64,000 nt of DNA from Bdellovibrio bacteriovorus. GTDB lineage: Bacteria > Bdellovibrionota > Bdellovibrionia > Bdellovibrionales > Bdellovibrionaceae. Position 1 is the stretch's first letter. Each line of letters starts with the position of its first letter. Shown in pieces: positions 15,197 to 21,012 of this stretch. The stretch is taken from NCBI RefSeq assembly GCF_001592745.1, contig NZ_LUKD01000005.1, positions 62,001 through 126,000 of the forward strand, written 5' to 3'. The position numbers and the translations under genes are program-made. Under the pieces are notes generated by a model that was not told the DNA's origin, searched no databases, and saw only the letters and a list, made by a program, of their open reading frames with translations.

Positions 15197-15225
15197 TAAA
15201 AGTTTTTCCTAATAAAGTCCGATAA
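15197..15225 (+). promoter_or_regulatory. Possible sigma-28 (FliA)-type promoter for the pilin-like operon
   Basis: TAAAAGTTT begins at 15197 and TCCGATAA is at 15218-15225. The sigma-28 consensus is TAAA, about 15 bases, GCCGATAA; here the -10 matches 7 of 8, but the spacer from TAAA is 17. It lies 28 bases upstream of the ATG at 15254 within an otherwise gene-free 139-base gap. Confidence 0.4.
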
Positions 15226-15253: not shown

Positions 15254-18200
15254 ATGCGAAATACGGTACGTAACTCTGCAGGTAACGTTTTGTTACAAAT
15301 CTTGGCGGCCACCGCTGTGATGAGTACCTCTTTTTATTTCCTCACCAACTACGTGATTGGCCAAAAAGAACAAGTCACTAAAACCGCGAACCTCGTGAAT
15401 GTCCGCTTTGCGCTGAATAGCGCGATGGACTATGTGATTTTCGGTGTTCGTCAGAAGTATTGTTTTTCTAATGATGACATGCTCTTGGCTGAGCCTGCTG
15501 AAAAATGCAACCTCACGAACACGGGCAGCGTTGAACGTCTGATCATGTCGGTAGAGCAGGAAAACTTCATTCGTCAACTGCTCGCCAACGGTCAGAGTGT
15601 AGGGGATGTGGATCCCAATAACATTCGTTTAAAAACCATCGATCGTTATATCCGCGTGAGTGCTGCATCCACAAACCATCCTCTGTTTCCAGTATTACAA
15701 AGCTTGAAGATGGTGAAGGGTGCAGATGGAAAACCTGTAGCTATTGACGGTGTAGGGGTGAAGATCACCCGCGATGATAGCGCCTTTCTTCCGCGCTCCG
15801 GCCGTGAAGTGTACGCGACGATCACGGTTTTCTTGAAAACTCATCGTGACCAAACCGAGCCTATTCGTATAGGTAATAAAGATTTAAGCATCAGTTCTCA
15901 GATCGTAGTGTATCCACGCGAGGTGGGTTCATTTGCTCTGTTGGTTCCGAATGATTTGCATTTGGATTCAACTTGGGATGCGCAAATGGAAAAAGGCGAT
16001 CTTTCAATTCATAAATTTAATAATCGTTCCGAGCTTGGAAACAGCCAAGGCTTGGTCTTTTTAAGTCCTGTCTTTGTGAATAAGAATATTCATATTGCCG
16101 TGGATAACGGTAGTGAAGAAACGGACCCTGGTGCCATTCAATATTCTGCCGTCACGTTTGCAGACCGCGTTTATCTTGGAAACGGTTGGGTGAAATCAAA
16201 CGGCTCTAATTATACACCTAGAACGTCAGGTGGAATGAGCGACCGCTATTGGGCTGACGCTCGTACATTCGGGGGGTTCTTAAAGGGTATTGAAAATGAT
16301 GGTGGTCTGGATTTAGGTCTTCACTATTTTGCGAAAATCTTATCAGGCACCGTGCCTAAAAGTGATTTGATGAGCCAGTGTATTGAGCTCACGAAAAAAC
16401 AGTCAAGTCGTGAATACATGTATCAATCAAAGCTAGGCGTAACTCTGAACTCATCGGAAAACAACAATTTCGATTATCGCTTATTCCTGTCTAACGGGAA
16501 CTATTTCAGTAAGCAAACGGATTCCTTGACCCTGAATAAGGACAATTGGGGCACAGGAACAGCAGAGCTGGTTTCTGATGACTACAATGACGCTGTCGTT
16601 AAGGTGCGCGTCGACATCGGTGATAAATGGGTTGAGGCTCAGATGCCGCGAGATGCGACATTGAAATTAAAAGTTCAAGTCGGCTCCTCAACATATTACA
16701 ACAGCCTCAAATCTGCGGTTTCGGCGAAAGAGTATGCACGCACTAGTGCCGTTGCCAAATATGATAAATTAGAGGATGACCTTGAAGCGGCACGCGCAAG
16801 TCTAGCGTCTTGGGAAACAAAGCTTGCCTCTGAGGAAGCAAAACCTGAGAAAAAAGCAAGTTCAGGTGGCGGAACAACCGCACCTTCCACGACTTCCACT
16901 TCCACTTCGACGAGTGGTGCAAGTGCTCCATCTAGCACAACAGAAACGGAGATGGCATCTACCTCGACGGAGTCATCTAGCAGTTCCTCTTCTTCAAGCA
17001 GCACGACGGTGACTGAAACGTCACCGTCCACCGAAGGCTCCACTTCAAGTGGTACTTCCAGTGGCGCGACTTCTGGTGGCAAAGTGGAATACCAAGACCC
17101 AGCGAAGATTGCTTACTATGAAGATCAGATTGAAGAAACCAAGAAAACCATCACGAGCCTTAACACTCAGTTGGTAGATCAGCAGAAGGTTGTTGAAGAC
17201 GCCAACTATCAAGTGAGCGTCGCAAAAAGTGCGGTTTCAAACTACGAGTACTTGGTAGCAAACCCTCCTTATATTGAGATTGAAACTGACAAAGTAAAAT
17301 CTTATTGGGGTTTTACATCTTACGATAAATTGGACTTCCAAGTGCGCGTTAAAAATGCGGGAAGTTTGATTGGAAAAGATGGTACCAAGATCGCTCCTGT
17401 CGTCGGAGTTCAGGCTTACGACGGTACGTACTGGAGAAGTAATCCTATCGTGAATCCAGCCAATGCGAACCTTCTTGGCTATCTGAATTTTAAGTTTGAT
17501 GGAACGACTTCGAACCTCAATCCTCCCAATGCGGTATCACGTACGCCTGCAAGTACGGCTGAAAGTTTAAATGAAGGTGGTACGGACTGGGCGAAACTTG
17601 CTGAGGACTGTGAAAATGCCCGTAATGCGCAATCGTCACAATCCTTCGGTGGTGCGGGTTGGAATACCAGCTTTGCTCCAAGCACAAGAACATCATGGAA
17701 TTTTGCGGGTGGCGAAGAAGTGGGTAAAGACCCGGGCCTTCCAAGTCTTGAAATCGTGAATTCAACACGAAGTACAGCGACCTTCCAGGTCCGTTCTATC
17801 GTGGGTAAGTGTCTGATCGATGCAACATCTGACTTTGTCACAGGTTTCTTTGCTTGTGATGAATTGGAAATTGAAGCTCGCTCTAAACCTTTGCGCATCA
17901 TTGGCACTTTCATCGTAGGAAAATTACGTTTACACCCGGATGCGATTCGTGCAGGGATCACGTGGAGTACTATCTATCATCCGCAATCGACCAAAGAATT
18001 GCGCGCTGCTAAAATTCTGAAGCCACTTTCCGGAGGAGGAGAAGAGGACTGTAATAGCAAGATTGTTGACCCGATTTGGCATCCAATCCCTTCGGTCCAA
18101 GGAGTCGCCGATCGTATGGCATGTAACACCATCAGTTTGAGAGCTAAAGCGGATCCGTTCCAGTGGACATCGGTTGATCCAGATTGTGGTCTGATTTCAG

Positions 18201-18277
18201 GTGCATCGAATACGACATGTAAACGTCGTCTGGTGCGTTTCTTCGTGGCAGAACAGTCCCGCGAAGGAGGCTTATAA
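15254..18277 (+). CDS. Giant pilin-like surface protein (PilX/GspK-like position)
   Basis: A 1007-residue protein. The N-terminus resembles a type IV prepilin: a short basic leader ending in SAG, then NVLLQ and a 20-residue hydrophobic helix. Position +5 is Gln, not Glu, as can happen in GspK/PilX-like minor pilins. The rest is mostly beta-type sequence interrupted at about 534-609 by a Ser/Thr/Gly low-complexity linker containing a run of ten Ser. This linker sits between two charged helical, coiled-coil-like segments (about 485-533 and 612-667). The C-terminal third has paired cysteines and hydrophobic repeats. It is first of four coupled genes including two E5 prepilins, so I infer a tip or adhesive component of a pilus-like fibre. 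It is far longer than known GspK or PilX. Confidence 0.6.
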   Translation: MRNTVRNSAGNVLLQILAATAVMSTSFYFLTNYVIGQKEQVTKTANLVNVRFALNSAMDYVIFGVRQKYCFSNDDMLLAEPAEKCNLTNTGSVERLIMSVEQENFIRQLLANGQSVGDVDPNNIRLKTIDRYIRVSAASTNHPLFPVLQSLKMVKGADGKPVAIDGVGVKITRDDSAFLPRSGREVYATITVFLKTHRDQTEPIRIGNKDLSISSQIVVYPREVGSFALLVPNDLHLDSTWDAQMEKGDLSIHKFNNRSELGNSQGLVFLSPVFVNKNIHIAVDNGSEETDPGAIQYSAVTFADRVYLGNGWVKSNGSNYTPRTSGGMSDRYWADARTFGGFLKGIENDGGLDLGLHYFAKILSGTVPKSDLMSQCIELTKKQSSREYMYQSKLGVTLNSSENNNFDYRLFLSNGNYFSKQTDSLTLNKDNWGTGTAELVSDDYNDAVVKVRVDIGDKWVEAQMPRDATLKLKVQVGSSTYYNSLKSAVSAKEYARTSAVAKYDKLEDDLEAARASLASWETKLASEEAKPEKKASSGGGTTAPSTTSTSTSTSGASAPSSTTETEMASTSTESSSSSSSSSSTTVTETSPSTEGSTSSGTSSGATSGGKVEYQDPAKIAYYEDQIEETKKTITSLNTQLVDQQKVVEDANYQVSVAKSAVSNYEYLVANPPYIEIETDKVKSYWGFTSYDKLDFQVRVKNAGSLIGKDGTKIAPVVGVQAYDGTYWRSNPIVNPANANLLGYLNFKFDGTTSNLNPPNAVSRTPASTAESLNEGGTDWAKLAEDCENARNAQSSQSFGGAGWNTSFAPSTRTSWNFAGGEEVGKDPGLPSLEIVNSTRSTATFQVRSIVGKCLIDATSDFVTGFFACDELEIEARSKPLRIIGTFIVGKLRLHPDAIRAGITWSTIYHPQSTKELRAAKILKPLSGGGEEDCNSKIVDPIWHPIPSVQGVADRMACNTISLRAKADPFQWTSVDPDCGLISGASNTTCKRRLVRFFVAEQSREGGL

Positions 18278-18717
18278 TGAAAACATTGAATAACAAAGGT
18301 CAGACACTAGTTGAAGCGATCGTGGGATTTGCACTATTGACTGTCGTAGGCACGGCTTTCGTAGGTGGTATGGCGCAGTTAAGAAAAACAACGGCGCAGA
18401 CCGTGCAGCTTTCGTCATCGGATAAACAAATCAATGACATCGCGGAGAACATCAAGGCCGGCGTTGAAAACTATCAAGTGAACTTTGACTATGAGTCGGG
18501 AACATCTTCAGTGTTGGCTTTAGATAAATTGCCAATGGCGTGGGATACCGGACGCGTGGCTAAGCGCGAGGACTGTAAAGAGTGCGCAGGGACTTACGGA
18601 TATACGATTCAACCTTATGAAGAATTCCGTGGTCTTTATAAAGTGACTCTACGCATGACTCACAAGTCATGGACAGAGCCATATAAAGATTACGTTTTCG
18701 TGGTGAGTGCAAAATGA
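18277..18717 (+). CDS. Type IV prepilin-like protein (PilV/GspI-like)
   Basis: A 146-residue pseudopilin or minor pilin. The prepilin signal is NNKG followed by QTLVEAIVGFALLTVVG: Gly at -1 and Glu at +5 of the mature chain, the site for prepilin peptidase cleavage and methylation. One N-terminal hydrophobic helix and a short globular domain with a DCKECAG CxxC pair follow. The start overlaps the previous stop by one base (TAATG), and the stop overlaps the next start (ATGA), so translation is coupled throughout the operon. Subtype assignment (PilV or GspI) is from size and gene order only. Confidence 0.78.
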   Translation: MKTLNNKGQTLVEAIVGFALLTVVGTAFVGGMAQLRKTTAQTVQLSSSDKQINDIAENIKAGVENYQVNFDYESGTSSVLALDKLPMAWDTGRVAKREDCKECAGTYGYTIQPYEEFRGLYKVTLRMTHKSWTEPYKDYVFVVSAK

Positions 18718-19718
18718 TGTTGATGAATAAAAAAGGCTTCACAGCCATAGAAGTTGCAATTGGTATTGGTGTGGTCGCAATCCTCACAACGGCCGTGCTT
18801 GCGACTCAGTTGATGGTCACTAAAGAGCAGGTGAAACTTCAAACCAAGCTTGAAGATTCCATTGATACGAATTTGGCCGAACGAGTGGTCTTCTCTGATT
18901 TGAATGCGGTCGAGCCGTCGTACAATAATCTGACGGTGAAAGACGATAGAGGTCTTCCATTCTTCGATTATTATCCGGATGTACCGGCAAACTTGTTGGG
19001 TAAAAAGGAAGATCTAGAAAGAAATATTACTTTGAAGCTGGGCGGCCGTACAGAAATGTTTATTCTGCTTCAAGACCTGAATGCGGGCGCGTTGATGAAC
19101 TATGACCCGGTGGCGGCTTATGATATTGGAGCTATTCCGTCGGATTTCAACAAATCGGCAACGCTGTCTTTTTCCTCACTGAATAAAAGCAAATGGGTCG
19201 AAAAGCAAAGACCTGCCTTTTGGGTTCGTGGAAGAGCTTTGATGTTAGATACTCCAGCGCGTTTGCGTCCAATTAGAACGGATGGTTCTGTTGATATGAA
19301 GGTCGCTCCTCGCAGTCCAATATTTATTGGATATGTTGATGAAAACTCCTTAAAAATAGATGCGACAATTAAGGGGCTTGTTGACCTGAAAGAGCCAGAG
19401 TTTGGAAGCACATTGGATTCGGTAGATAAATTCTTGCGGGCCGCGCCGTCCATTGGCGGGGGGCAGTCGATCGTGCGTATGCGTGCTGTAAGATTGATTC
19501 GCTACTTCCTGCAGCCTCAAGAGGATGCCCGTTACGTTGGTAAGCCTGCCAATCTTTATAAATCTGTTTATGAAGATGGGAGATGGTCAGAGCCCTTCTT
19601 AATGGCCGATGCGGTGGCAGAGTTTAATCTTCGCCGCGATTCAGTTTTGAAGAGAATGATTTATTTTAAAGTTAAGAAAATGGATAAAAAGGACCCGACG
19701 AAGACCGCCGGTCTTTAA
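18714..19718 (+). CDS. Type IV prepilin-like protein (PilW/GspJ-like)
   Basis: A 334-residue prepilin with a classical cleavage region NKKG then FTAIEVAIGIGVVAI (Glu at +5) and a hydrophobic N-terminal helix. The large C-terminal domain has no motif I recognise and is longer than most GspJ proteins (about 200 residues) and nearer PilW in size. It overlaps the preceding prepilin by four bases. It presumably assembles with the two upstream pilin-like proteins. There is a second in-frame ATG at 18720, which would shorten the leader by two residues. Confidence 0.75.
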   Translation: MMLMNKKGFTAIEVAIGIGVVAILTTAVLATQLMVTKEQVKLQTKLEDSIDTNLAERVVFSDLNAVEPSYNNLTVKDDRGLPFFDYYPDVPANLLGKKEDLERNITLKLGGRTEMFILLQDLNAGALMNYDPVAAYDIGAIPSDFNKSATLSFSSLNKSKWVEKQRPAFWVRGRALMLDTPARLRPIRTDGSVDMKVAPRSPIFIGYVDENSLKIDATIKGLVDLKEPEFGSTLDSVDKFLRAAPSIGGGQSIVRMRAVRLIRYFLQPQEDARYVGKPANLYKSVYEDGRWSEPFLMADAVAEFNLRRDSVLKRMIYFKVKKMDKKDPTKTAGL

Positions 19719-19735
19719 AGGTTTCAGGGGGAATT

Positions 19736-20983
19736 ATGGGTACGTTATCAAAAAACACCGTCGCTCTGGGGGCGCTTGTATTTTTCAGTATTCCGTCCTT
19801 GGCGGCTGATAAAGATTTTCCAATGTCGGTCAACTCGGCGACATCGGGTGACTCTGTCGTGTCGGCGCCGGCCTCAGGATTGGTGACGAGATCTGGAAAA
19901 ACAGAAGTCATGATCAAAGTAAACAACTCGTGCTTCGGGACCAACCTTCGTGGTGTGGGAAATCCATTAGCCCCAAGCTCCATTATTCAAGCTAGTTTTG
20001 TTATGGTGATTGGTGGGAAAGAATATCCAATCAGAGTCGAATATCCAGCGATGTTAGTAACGGCGGCGGGCATGTCCGGCGGTGGAACTGTAGCTCCGAT
20101 GTCTACTGATAAGTTTTCCATCCCTGGTGGTGGATCTGCAGGGATTTTCGGAAACAGCGTTATCTTGAAAACGCCAATTCCAACCAGTGTTACGATTGAT
20201 GATGAAGGTAACGTAAAGGAAAATGCGAAAGGGGATGTATATCTGAAAAGTTATGCATTCAATCAGGAAATCACATCTTGTAGCGGTTCGGCTGTTTATG
20301 GTGCTTACGGACACTCATCTAGTCATGCCACTTATCCATGCGGTGATTACATGGGGAAAAATGGCGCACTTTCCGCCTCCTTCGGCGGCATCTCCGTATC
20401 CTCTGATAAATCCAACATCGACATCAACGTCTCTTTCCCAGGACAAACAGGCTTCTGCGGTGGTTACTGGTCGCCGTTGATGGTGTTCTGGGATGATGAA
20501 AGACCGAAGTTTGATGCGATCAGTGATTTCCCTTTGAACCCATTCGGTAAAACGATGTGGCCAGAAGCAAAATCCCCAGGTTGGTTCGTGGCTTTGGATC
20601 GCGATAAGTCAGGTATGATTGATCAACGTAACGAGCTCTTTGGTGATAACGCAGACAAAGTGAATGGCTTTGAAGTCTTGAAGCAATTCGATTCGAACAA
20701 AGACGGCTTTATCGATAAAAAAGATAAAGAGTTTAAAAAGCTAGTTCTTTGGAATGATGCGAACGGCGATGGTCTTTCGCAAAAAGAAGAAGTCGTGAAG
20801 CTTTCTGACAAGATCACGAAGATTTCTTTGAACTATGAAAAAGGTGTTGTGAGACCGATCGGCCGCTACGCCGAGGCTCGTGAAAGAGCGAAATTTTGGT
20901 ACAAAGAAAAAGGCAAAGAGAAGCAAGGAGATATCGTGGATATCTGGCTTGCGCCAGCGGAAACAAAGCTGAGTCAAAGATAA
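19736..20983 (+). CDS. Secreted EF-hand calcium-binding protein of the pilin-like operon
   Basis: A 415-residue exported protein with a signal peptide (cleavage near SLAA, residues 20-24) and no pilin motif. Residues about 285-355 contain three EF-hand-like loops: DRDKSGMID (about 288), DSNKDGFID (about 319) and DANGDGLSQKE (about 341), each with Asp/Asn at calcium-ligand positions. The N-terminal region is rich in Gly/Ser with several cysteines. It is the last gene of the pilin operon, which ends in a strong terminator at 20985. By analogy with calcium-binding PilY1 at the tip of type IV pili, it could regulate or cap the fibre; this is inference, since no PilY1 beta-propeller is visible. 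Confidence 0.72.
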   Translation: MGTLSKNTVALGALVFFSIPSLAADKDFPMSVNSATSGDSVVSAPASGLVTRSGKTEVMIKVNNSCFGTNLRGVGNPLAPSSIIQASFVMVIGGKEYPIRVEYPAMLVTAAGMSGGGTVAPMSTDKFSIPGGGSAGIFGNSVILKTPIPTSVTIDDEGNVKENAKGDVYLKSYAFNQEITSCSGSAVYGAYGHSSSHATYPCGDYMGKNGALSASFGGISVSSDKSNIDINVSFPGQTGFCGGYWSPLMVFWDDERPKFDAISDFPLNPFGKTMWPEAKSPGWFVALDRDKSGMIDQRNELFGDNADKVNGFEVLKQFDSNKDGFIDKKDKEFKKLVLWNDANGDGLSQKEEVVKLSDKITKISLNYEKGVVRPIGRYAEARERAKFWYKEKGKEKQGDIVDIWLAPAETKLSQR

Positions 20984-20984
20984 G

Positions 20985-21012
20985 AAAAAGGCGGGTGAAC
21001 CCCGCCTTTTTT
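20985..21012 (+). terminator. Rho-independent terminator of the pilin-like operon
   Basis: AGGCGGG (20989-20995), loop TGAAC, CCCGCCT (21001-21007), preceded by an A-run and followed by a T-run. It is a canonical intrinsic terminator directly after the stop at 20983. Confidence 0.93.

Follow-up and report, generated by a model that had tools for sequence, protein, structure and literature searches.

In the type IVa pilus of Myxococcus xanthus, PilY1 and the minor pilins FimU, PilV, PilW and PilX form a priming complex. Several clusters per genome encode it; one of its minor pilins lacks Glu5, and its single secreted partner carries a type I signal peptide (PMC7541494). In the type II secretion system (T2SS), the pseudopilus tip, GspI-GspJ-GspK, is built of small, medium and large subunits, of which the large one, GspK, also lacks Glu5, binds substrates and caps the complex. 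Glu5 is the residue for docking into the growing filament, and "one large subunit without Glu5" is the signature of a tip pilin in the literature. A third system, the Kil (Tad) pilus of Myxococcus, carries interchangeable KilL-KilM-KilN Tips; these are disulfide-rich assemblies of three pilins that occur in paralogous sets, are used in predation and are homologues of TadE/F/G, and the large pilin KilN4 is said to have an additional domain in which two long helices are combined with a beta-scaffold (PMC12075869). Finally, two four-gene sets of Bdellovibrio bacteriovorus HD100, Bd2209-Bd2212 and Bd2723-Bd2726, have been presented as "novel complexes" made mostly of hypothetical proteins, Bd2724 being FimT/FimU-like (PMC12034629).

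The window analysed here, a stretch of 64,000 nucleotides from a B. bacteriovorus contig (NZ_LUKD01000005.1), contains an operon orthologous to Bd2209-Bd2212. Its four ORFs, found by an ORF check of the sequence, are compact and, like all features described below, lie on the (+) strand. The first encodes a giant tip-pilin candidate of 1007 aa (15254..18277; orthologue of Bd2212), followed by a small prepilin of 146 aa with Glu5 (18277..18717; Bd2211), a second prepilin of 334 aa with Glu5 (18714..19718; Bd2210), and a secreted EF-hand protein of 415 aa (19736..20983; Bd2209, "frpC"). From the giant to the EF-hand gene, the junctions are overlaps of 1 bp and 4 bp and then a 17-bp gap, and the operon ends in an intrinsic terminator with a 12-bp stem and then a T-rich tract (20984..21012). 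The earlier note had described four coupled genes, a giant with Gln at +5, two prepilins with Glu5, three EF-hand loops and a strong terminator, all of which were found again at the same positions. The gene order is the same in both HD100 sets, to which the window proteins are 52-68% (Bd2209-Bd2212) and 33-41% (Bd2723-Bd2726) identical; the ORF sizes in genome G006 (995/153/328/414 and 901/162/325/384) exactly equal those published.

Taken together, the products of the operon probably form a minor-pilin complex that primes a type IV filament and sits at its tip, the type IVa pilus being the most likely carrier. In comparison to the M. xanthus complex, it has three pilins rather than four, in the order giant-V-W-EF, and the giant is PilX-like by its proposed role only. 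The giant begins with MRNTVRNSAG, followed by NVLLQILAATA, so that Gly is at -1 and Gln at +5, and prepilin cleavage is expected after Gly10. Across the aligned N-termini of its homologues, Gly(-1) is present in 44/45 and Glu at +5 in 0/45. In contrast, Gly(-1) and Glu5 are invariant in the families of the 146-aa protein (38/38 aligned homologues) and the 334-aa protein (39/39). The giant is thus the only one of the three prepilin-type proteins of the operon that is missing Glu5, and because GspK and PilX tip subunits share this property, a tip role for the giant is suggested. It is also the largest pilin-like member of the set, as is found for PilX/GspK-type subunits.

In length and family matches, the giant differs from these subunits. 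Its length of about 1000 aa compares with 421 aa for the GspK of this genome, and it has no GspK domain; no PilX_N or T2SSK match (Pfam/NCBIfam) was found for it, nor among the top 25 families listed for 44 homologues, and no member of the operon matches the PilX, GspK, PilV or PilW families. Weak Pfam/NCBIfam matches of the giant (Eco57I, BREX, SMC) fall within or near a coiled coil and were rejected. In the AF2 model, which has a mean pLDDT of 82, a long first helix (residues 8-66; 15275..15451) is followed by a beta-rich body and two long helices (residues 479-529 and 616-669), predicted with high confidence around a disordered Ser/Thr-rich linker (residues 533-611, pLDDT about 32); this region (16688..17260) also gives coiled-coil profile matches. 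The C-terminal beta-rich region (residues 673-1007; 17270..18274; from the AF2 model and alignment) holds the most conserved stretch of the protein and seven (786, 853, 868, 933, 957, 978 and 989) of the ten Cys that are invariant among the homologues. A Foldseek search of the PDB with the predicted head returned no pilin match and nothing significant (best E 0.44), and no fold match in the PDB was found for the C-terminal region.

The two long helices raise the question of the Kil Tips. If the filament were a Tad/Flp (Kil-like) pilus and the operon encoded its tip, as a counterpart of the KilL-KilM-KilN Tips, the giant would take the place of KilN, which it resembles by description only, in its helices, beta-scaffold and Cys content. 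Herrou et al. mention a structural Tip candidate from Bdellovibrio, Tad CpaB is present in 24/24 genomes tested, and a tadC::tn mutant falls into the same phenotype class as Bd2210::tn. However, Kil Tips are TadE/F/G homologues, whereas the two small proteins of the operon have N_methyl-type (T4a/T2SS) leaders, the N_methyl profile being matched by 32/38 homologues of the 146-aa prepilin and by 35/39 homologues of the 334-aa prepilin. The sole Tad match in the operon, in the 146-aa protein, is weak (E 0.46), and the published description of the Tips, in the part available, includes no secreted EF-hand partner. A Kil-like tip is therefore an unlikely identity for this complex. Within the preferred type IVa tip, the 146-aa prepilin is PilV/GspI-like and the 334-aa prepilin PilW/GspJ-like, in both cases by position and size only.

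The fourth protein differs from the secreted partner in M. xanthus: it has an FrpC-type domain in place of the PilY1 beta-propeller, for which no match (PF05567) was found in it. This domain (residues 246-405; 20471..20950) resembles the FrpC self-processing module (PDB 6sjw, 6sjx; PMC7078468) by profile (E 9e-26) and by fold (PDB 6sjx, E 8.9e-10, TM by target 0.73). The overall fold is shared with FrpC, as are a pair of Trp residues (W275 and W339 in this protein) and the three EF-hand loops (residues 288-300, 319-330 and 341-352; 20597..20791; Pfam EF-hand_5, E 1.4e-6). In contrast to FrpC, the domain is C-terminal in a small protein, no RTX repeats were seen, and Ser-Pro occupies the position of the scissile Asp-Pro, an equivalence inferred from the N-terminal motif given in the FrpC paper (PMC7078468). 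In all 42 homologues in which the motif could be located, it reads Ser-Pro; taken singly, Ser246 is present in 43/44 and Pro247 in 44/44. Since the scissile Asp is missing, the protein is not expected to cut or cross-link itself, and "clip-and-link" self-cleavage was rejected. Calcium control through the FrpC-type fold is plausible. The preceding domain (residues 58-251; 19907..20488) is predicted by AF2 to consist of beta-strands and has no known relative, the match to a solved structure being limited to the C-terminal part of the protein.

Expression of the operon may be tied to the attack phase. A FliA (sigma28)-type promoter, AAAAGTTT-N12-TCCGATAA, lies at 15198..15225, with the start codon of the giant 36 nt further on. 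The same bases can also be read as AAAAG-N16-CCGATA, with a spacing equal to the N16 of the published attack-phase consensus, TTAAG-N16-CCGATA. In two-box scoring with a threshold of 12/16, 18 of the 45 homologous upstream regions reached the threshold, in comparison to 0.95 +/- 0.92 (maximum 5) for shuffles. The strict promoter pattern had no match within the window.

No major pilin, motor or filament-assembly gene is present inside the operon, and the "distinct fibre" proposed in the earlier note is consequently unsupported. The same note had reported no pilus motor or secretin, which holds for this neighbourhood but not genome-wide: type IVa pilus, T2SS and Tad genes (PilT, a T2SS secretin and Tad CpaB) are all found elsewhere. 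Because these three occur in nearly every sampled genome, with the T2SS secretin above cut-off in 23/24 genomes tested, co-occurrence cannot name the carrier filament. A PilY1 profile had no match in this genome or among 148 relatives; its control was equally silent, so this is weak evidence and does not prove absence. T2SSK profile counts were discarded, as many matches lay in ~800-aa frames judged not to be GspK.

The wide distribution of the secretin would also suit an accessory T2SS pseudopilus tip, with the EF-hand protein as its cognate secreted substrate; NCBI assigns Bd2725 to the type II secretion system (PMC12034629), and GspK likewise binds substrates and has no Glu5. Nevertheless, this reading is improbable. 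A complete T2SS pseudopilin operon is already present in the genome and includes a GspK of its own (L040, 421 aa; Pfam T2SSK_1st, E 1.4e-8); genome G194 has the four-gene module but no T2SS secretin above cut-off, although its assembly is in 330 contigs; and a secretion role would explain an attachment defect only indirectly.

The four genes travel together. In the Bdellovibrionota loci examined, both prepilins are near 67/67 giants and the EF-hand protein near 66/67, the sole exception sitting at a contig edge. The earlier note had named giant homologues without prepilin genes as evidence against its view, and none were found in these loci. Conversely, the full-length EF-hand protein type occurs in 61 of 340 genomes, every one with a giant, and 88/89 of its copies lie within 8 kb of one. 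The four-gene set is an obligate co-occurrence, far from chance. Its distribution is patchy, with a clear giant in 64/340 Bdellovibrionota genomes, a count which excludes weak giant-profile matches (under about 54 bits, mostly at profile positions 450-580) as coiled-coil noise. Two genomes of the genus Bdellovibrio rated 96-100% complete (G008 and G015) gave no giant. Therefore, the module is not needed by every type IVa pilus.

For each of the two HD100 sets, a complex of all four proteins is predicted, with no major pilin included, in which the giant forms the hub (ipTM 0.852 and 0.837); the sets are expressed in the attack phase, and transposon mutants lose predation (PMC12034629). Bd2210::tn is defective in attachment, killing and rounding, a phenotype class shared with pilT::tn and tadC::tn. 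The predicted complexes, together with an operon that holds no filament gene, could be taken to describe a self-standing surface adhesin, anchored in the membrane by its pilin-like helices outside any filament. This reading is very improbable, as Glu5 is kept in two subunits and a free-standing adhesin leaves the prepilin-type processing of three subunits unexplained. By comparison, the tip complex and prey contact that the earlier note had put forward gain support from the conserved set, the giant without Glu5, the HD100 complex predictions and the predation and attachment phenotypes. In the literature found, the set is known as the HD100 complexes and is nowhere called a pilus tip; the report on these complexes recognises neither such a tip nor the absence of Glu5 nor the change in the self-processing domain (PMC12034629). 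Added here are the absence of Glu5 from the giant only, the FrpC fold with Ser for the scissile Asp, and the FliA-type attack-phase promoter.

For the tip complex of a type IVa pilus, we infer the location, the carrier, a dependence on calcium and direct binding to prey as follows. The giant would be the first and outermost pilin, in a role like that of GspK and PilX, and the secreted EF-hand protein would bind the pilin complex and stand where PilY1 stands in other type IVa pili. Rigid folding of its FrpC-like domain would require contact with extracellular calcium. The FliA-type promoter would switch the set on in the attack phase, so that extended pili could bring it to the prey surface. 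Contact would be made there by the outer domains of the giant and of its EF-hand partner. The paralogous sets Bd2209-2212 and Bd2723-2726 may be alternative tips.

Many of the genes that Bdellovibrio needs for predation are listed as "hypothetical". Seen as two pilus-tip cassettes, Bd2209-2212 and Bd2723-2726 would turn the list of attachment mutants into a concrete component that can be tested. It is possible, although we advance it tentatively, that the Bdellovibrionota have a class of PilY1-free pilus tips in which a ~1000-residue pilin and an FrpC-derived calcium-folding protein replace PilX and PilY1, and in which exchangeable paralogous sets influence which prey can be attached to. If true, such a tip would do without PilY1, and the FrpC self-processing fold would have a second role, in which it acts as a calcium switch but lacks the chemistry for cutting.

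The four genes at 15254-18277, 18277-18717, 18714-19718 and 19736-20983 form a single tight operon; the window containing them is part of a 3.76-Mb genome from the genus Bdellovibrio. In order, they encode a 1007-residue protein (the giant), V-like and W-like prepilins of 146 and 334 residues, and a 415-residue EF-hand protein, after which a strong terminator (20984-21012) closes the operon. A second copy of this module is present on contig C1 of the same genome. Within the genus, G006 likewise has two such operons, one encoding proteins of 995, 153, 328, and 414 aa and the other proteins of 901, 162, 325, and 384 aa; these lengths are identical to those published for Bd2212-Bd2209 and Bd2726-Bd2723, respectively, in B. 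bacteriovorus HD100 (PMC12034629). For the HD100 sets, AlphaFold-Multimer complexes of all four proteins have ipTM values of 0.852 and 0.837, expression occurs in attack phase, and predation is lost in transposon mutants of Bd2210, Bd2211, Bd2212, and Bd2723 (PMC12034629). Duncan et al. 2019 (PMC6561027) place Bd2210::tn with pilT::tn and tadC::tn among the mutants that fail at attachment, killing, and rounding.

Just 5' of the operon is a promoter motif, AAAAGTTT-N12-TCCGATAA (15198-15225), which has the same spacing as the published Bdellovibrio attack-phase consensus (TTAAG-N16-CCGATA) and differs from it at two positions of the first box. Using two-box scoring, sigma28-like box pairs of at least 12/16 were found upstream of 18 of 45 homologous giants, compared to 0.95 +/- 0.92 in dinucleotide shuffles, although the significance of this enrichment is overstated because related upstream sequences are not independent.

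In the giant, a Gly ends the leader, a hydrophobic helix follows, and position +5 is Gln. Across 45 homologues this residue is Q, T, M, L, Y, V, N, I, or F and never Glu, with the cleavage site chosen automatically and possibly misplaced in two or three rows. In contrast, Gly(-1) and Glu5 are invariant in the families of the 146- and 334-residue proteins, most members of which match N_methyl. The AlphaFold2 model of the giant (mean pLDDT 82) has a helix at 8-66, beta-rich regions including the conserved C-terminal region, and long helices at 479-529 and 616-669 flanking a disordered Ser/Thr linker. Ten Cys are invariant in the family. No fold match was found in the PDB, and no pilin family was matched in Pfam or NCBIfam. 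One homologue (L027, G014 C269) has a single in-frame TAG, reflecting a pseudogene or an assembly error.

The 415-residue protein begins with a signal-peptide-like segment, continues with a beta-strand domain of no known type, and ends in a domain matching the FrpC self-processing module by both sequence and fold. FrpC is cut at Asp414-Pro415, directly before PLALD, and its module contains three EF-hand loops and a Trp451/Trp519 pair (PMC7078468). At the corresponding site the family motif is SPLMVFFDD, with Ser-Pro almost invariant, and Trp 275, Trp 339, and the EF-hand loops are all retained; therefore, the fold is kept but the cutting residue is not. By itself, the FrpC-type domain is also found in numerous other proteins of the phylum (340 genomes searched), mostly with Ser-Pro instead of Asp-Pro (L134-L147); L143 is the one case with Asp-Pro.

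A clear giant was found in 64 of 340 Bdellovibrionota genomes and a full-length-type EF-hand protein in 61, never in a genome lacking the giant; of 89 such EF-hand genes, 88 are within 8 kb of one. In fully read loci, some from closely related genomes, both prepilins are near the giant on the same strand in 67/67 cases and the EF-hand protein in 66/67. Gene order is mostly giant-V-W-EF, but a few loci begin with EF. In three genomes of the genus the complete module occurs twice in tandem (L050, L080, and L081). Two genomes of the genus, G015 (rated 100% complete) and G008 (96%), lack the giant but keep PilT.

Other prepilin-like clusters were also observed. In G000, L046:3971-8111 (C9) has the order X-V-W, encoding a large 857-aa X protein without Glu5 or a Pfam match, followed by 163- and 360-aa proteins with Glu5. 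L045:4143-7883 (C1) has V-W-X order (175, 399, and 465 aa), with X, the large member, matching the giant's profile weakly and N-terminally only; after X comes a protein of 225 aa whose start resembles a signal peptide. L043:6048-11233 (C1) encodes 432-, 958-, and 331-aa proteins, the 958-aa protein itself having Glu5, and at L042:5192-9323 (C8) a 466-aa Glu5 prepilin adjoins a protein of 261 aa that starts like a prepilin and has a collagen-like C-terminus.

In the majority of T2SS and T4a systems, Glu5 is missing from a single minor pilin, often the largest, and its absence has been proposed to mark the first (tip) subunit. Two Glu5 minor pilins, a giant without Glu5, and a secreted partner follow the same pattern as PilV/PilW/PilX and PilY1, and because of this fit the module is best read as a complex for pilus priming and the pilus tip. 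Its carrier would probably be a type IVa pilus: the T4a/T2SS-type leaders favour it over Tad, and the genome has a complete GspG-K operon of its own (L040), which counts against the T2SS. Since almost every genome sampled has PilT, the T2SS secretin, and the Tad protein CpaB, distribution cannot decide between these carriers.

The operon, the predicted complex, and the phenotype are already published. The papers found do not interpret the module as a pilus tip, and they do not mention that the giant lacks Glu5, that the self-processing domain is altered, or that the set is obligate across the phylum. Nor do they assign the promoter to this operon, although supplementary tables may list it. The Kil Tip paper mentions a structural Bdellovibrio Tip candidate (PMC12075869); if that candidate corresponds to the same genes, then the interpretation of the module as a tip complex would have been anticipated in part.
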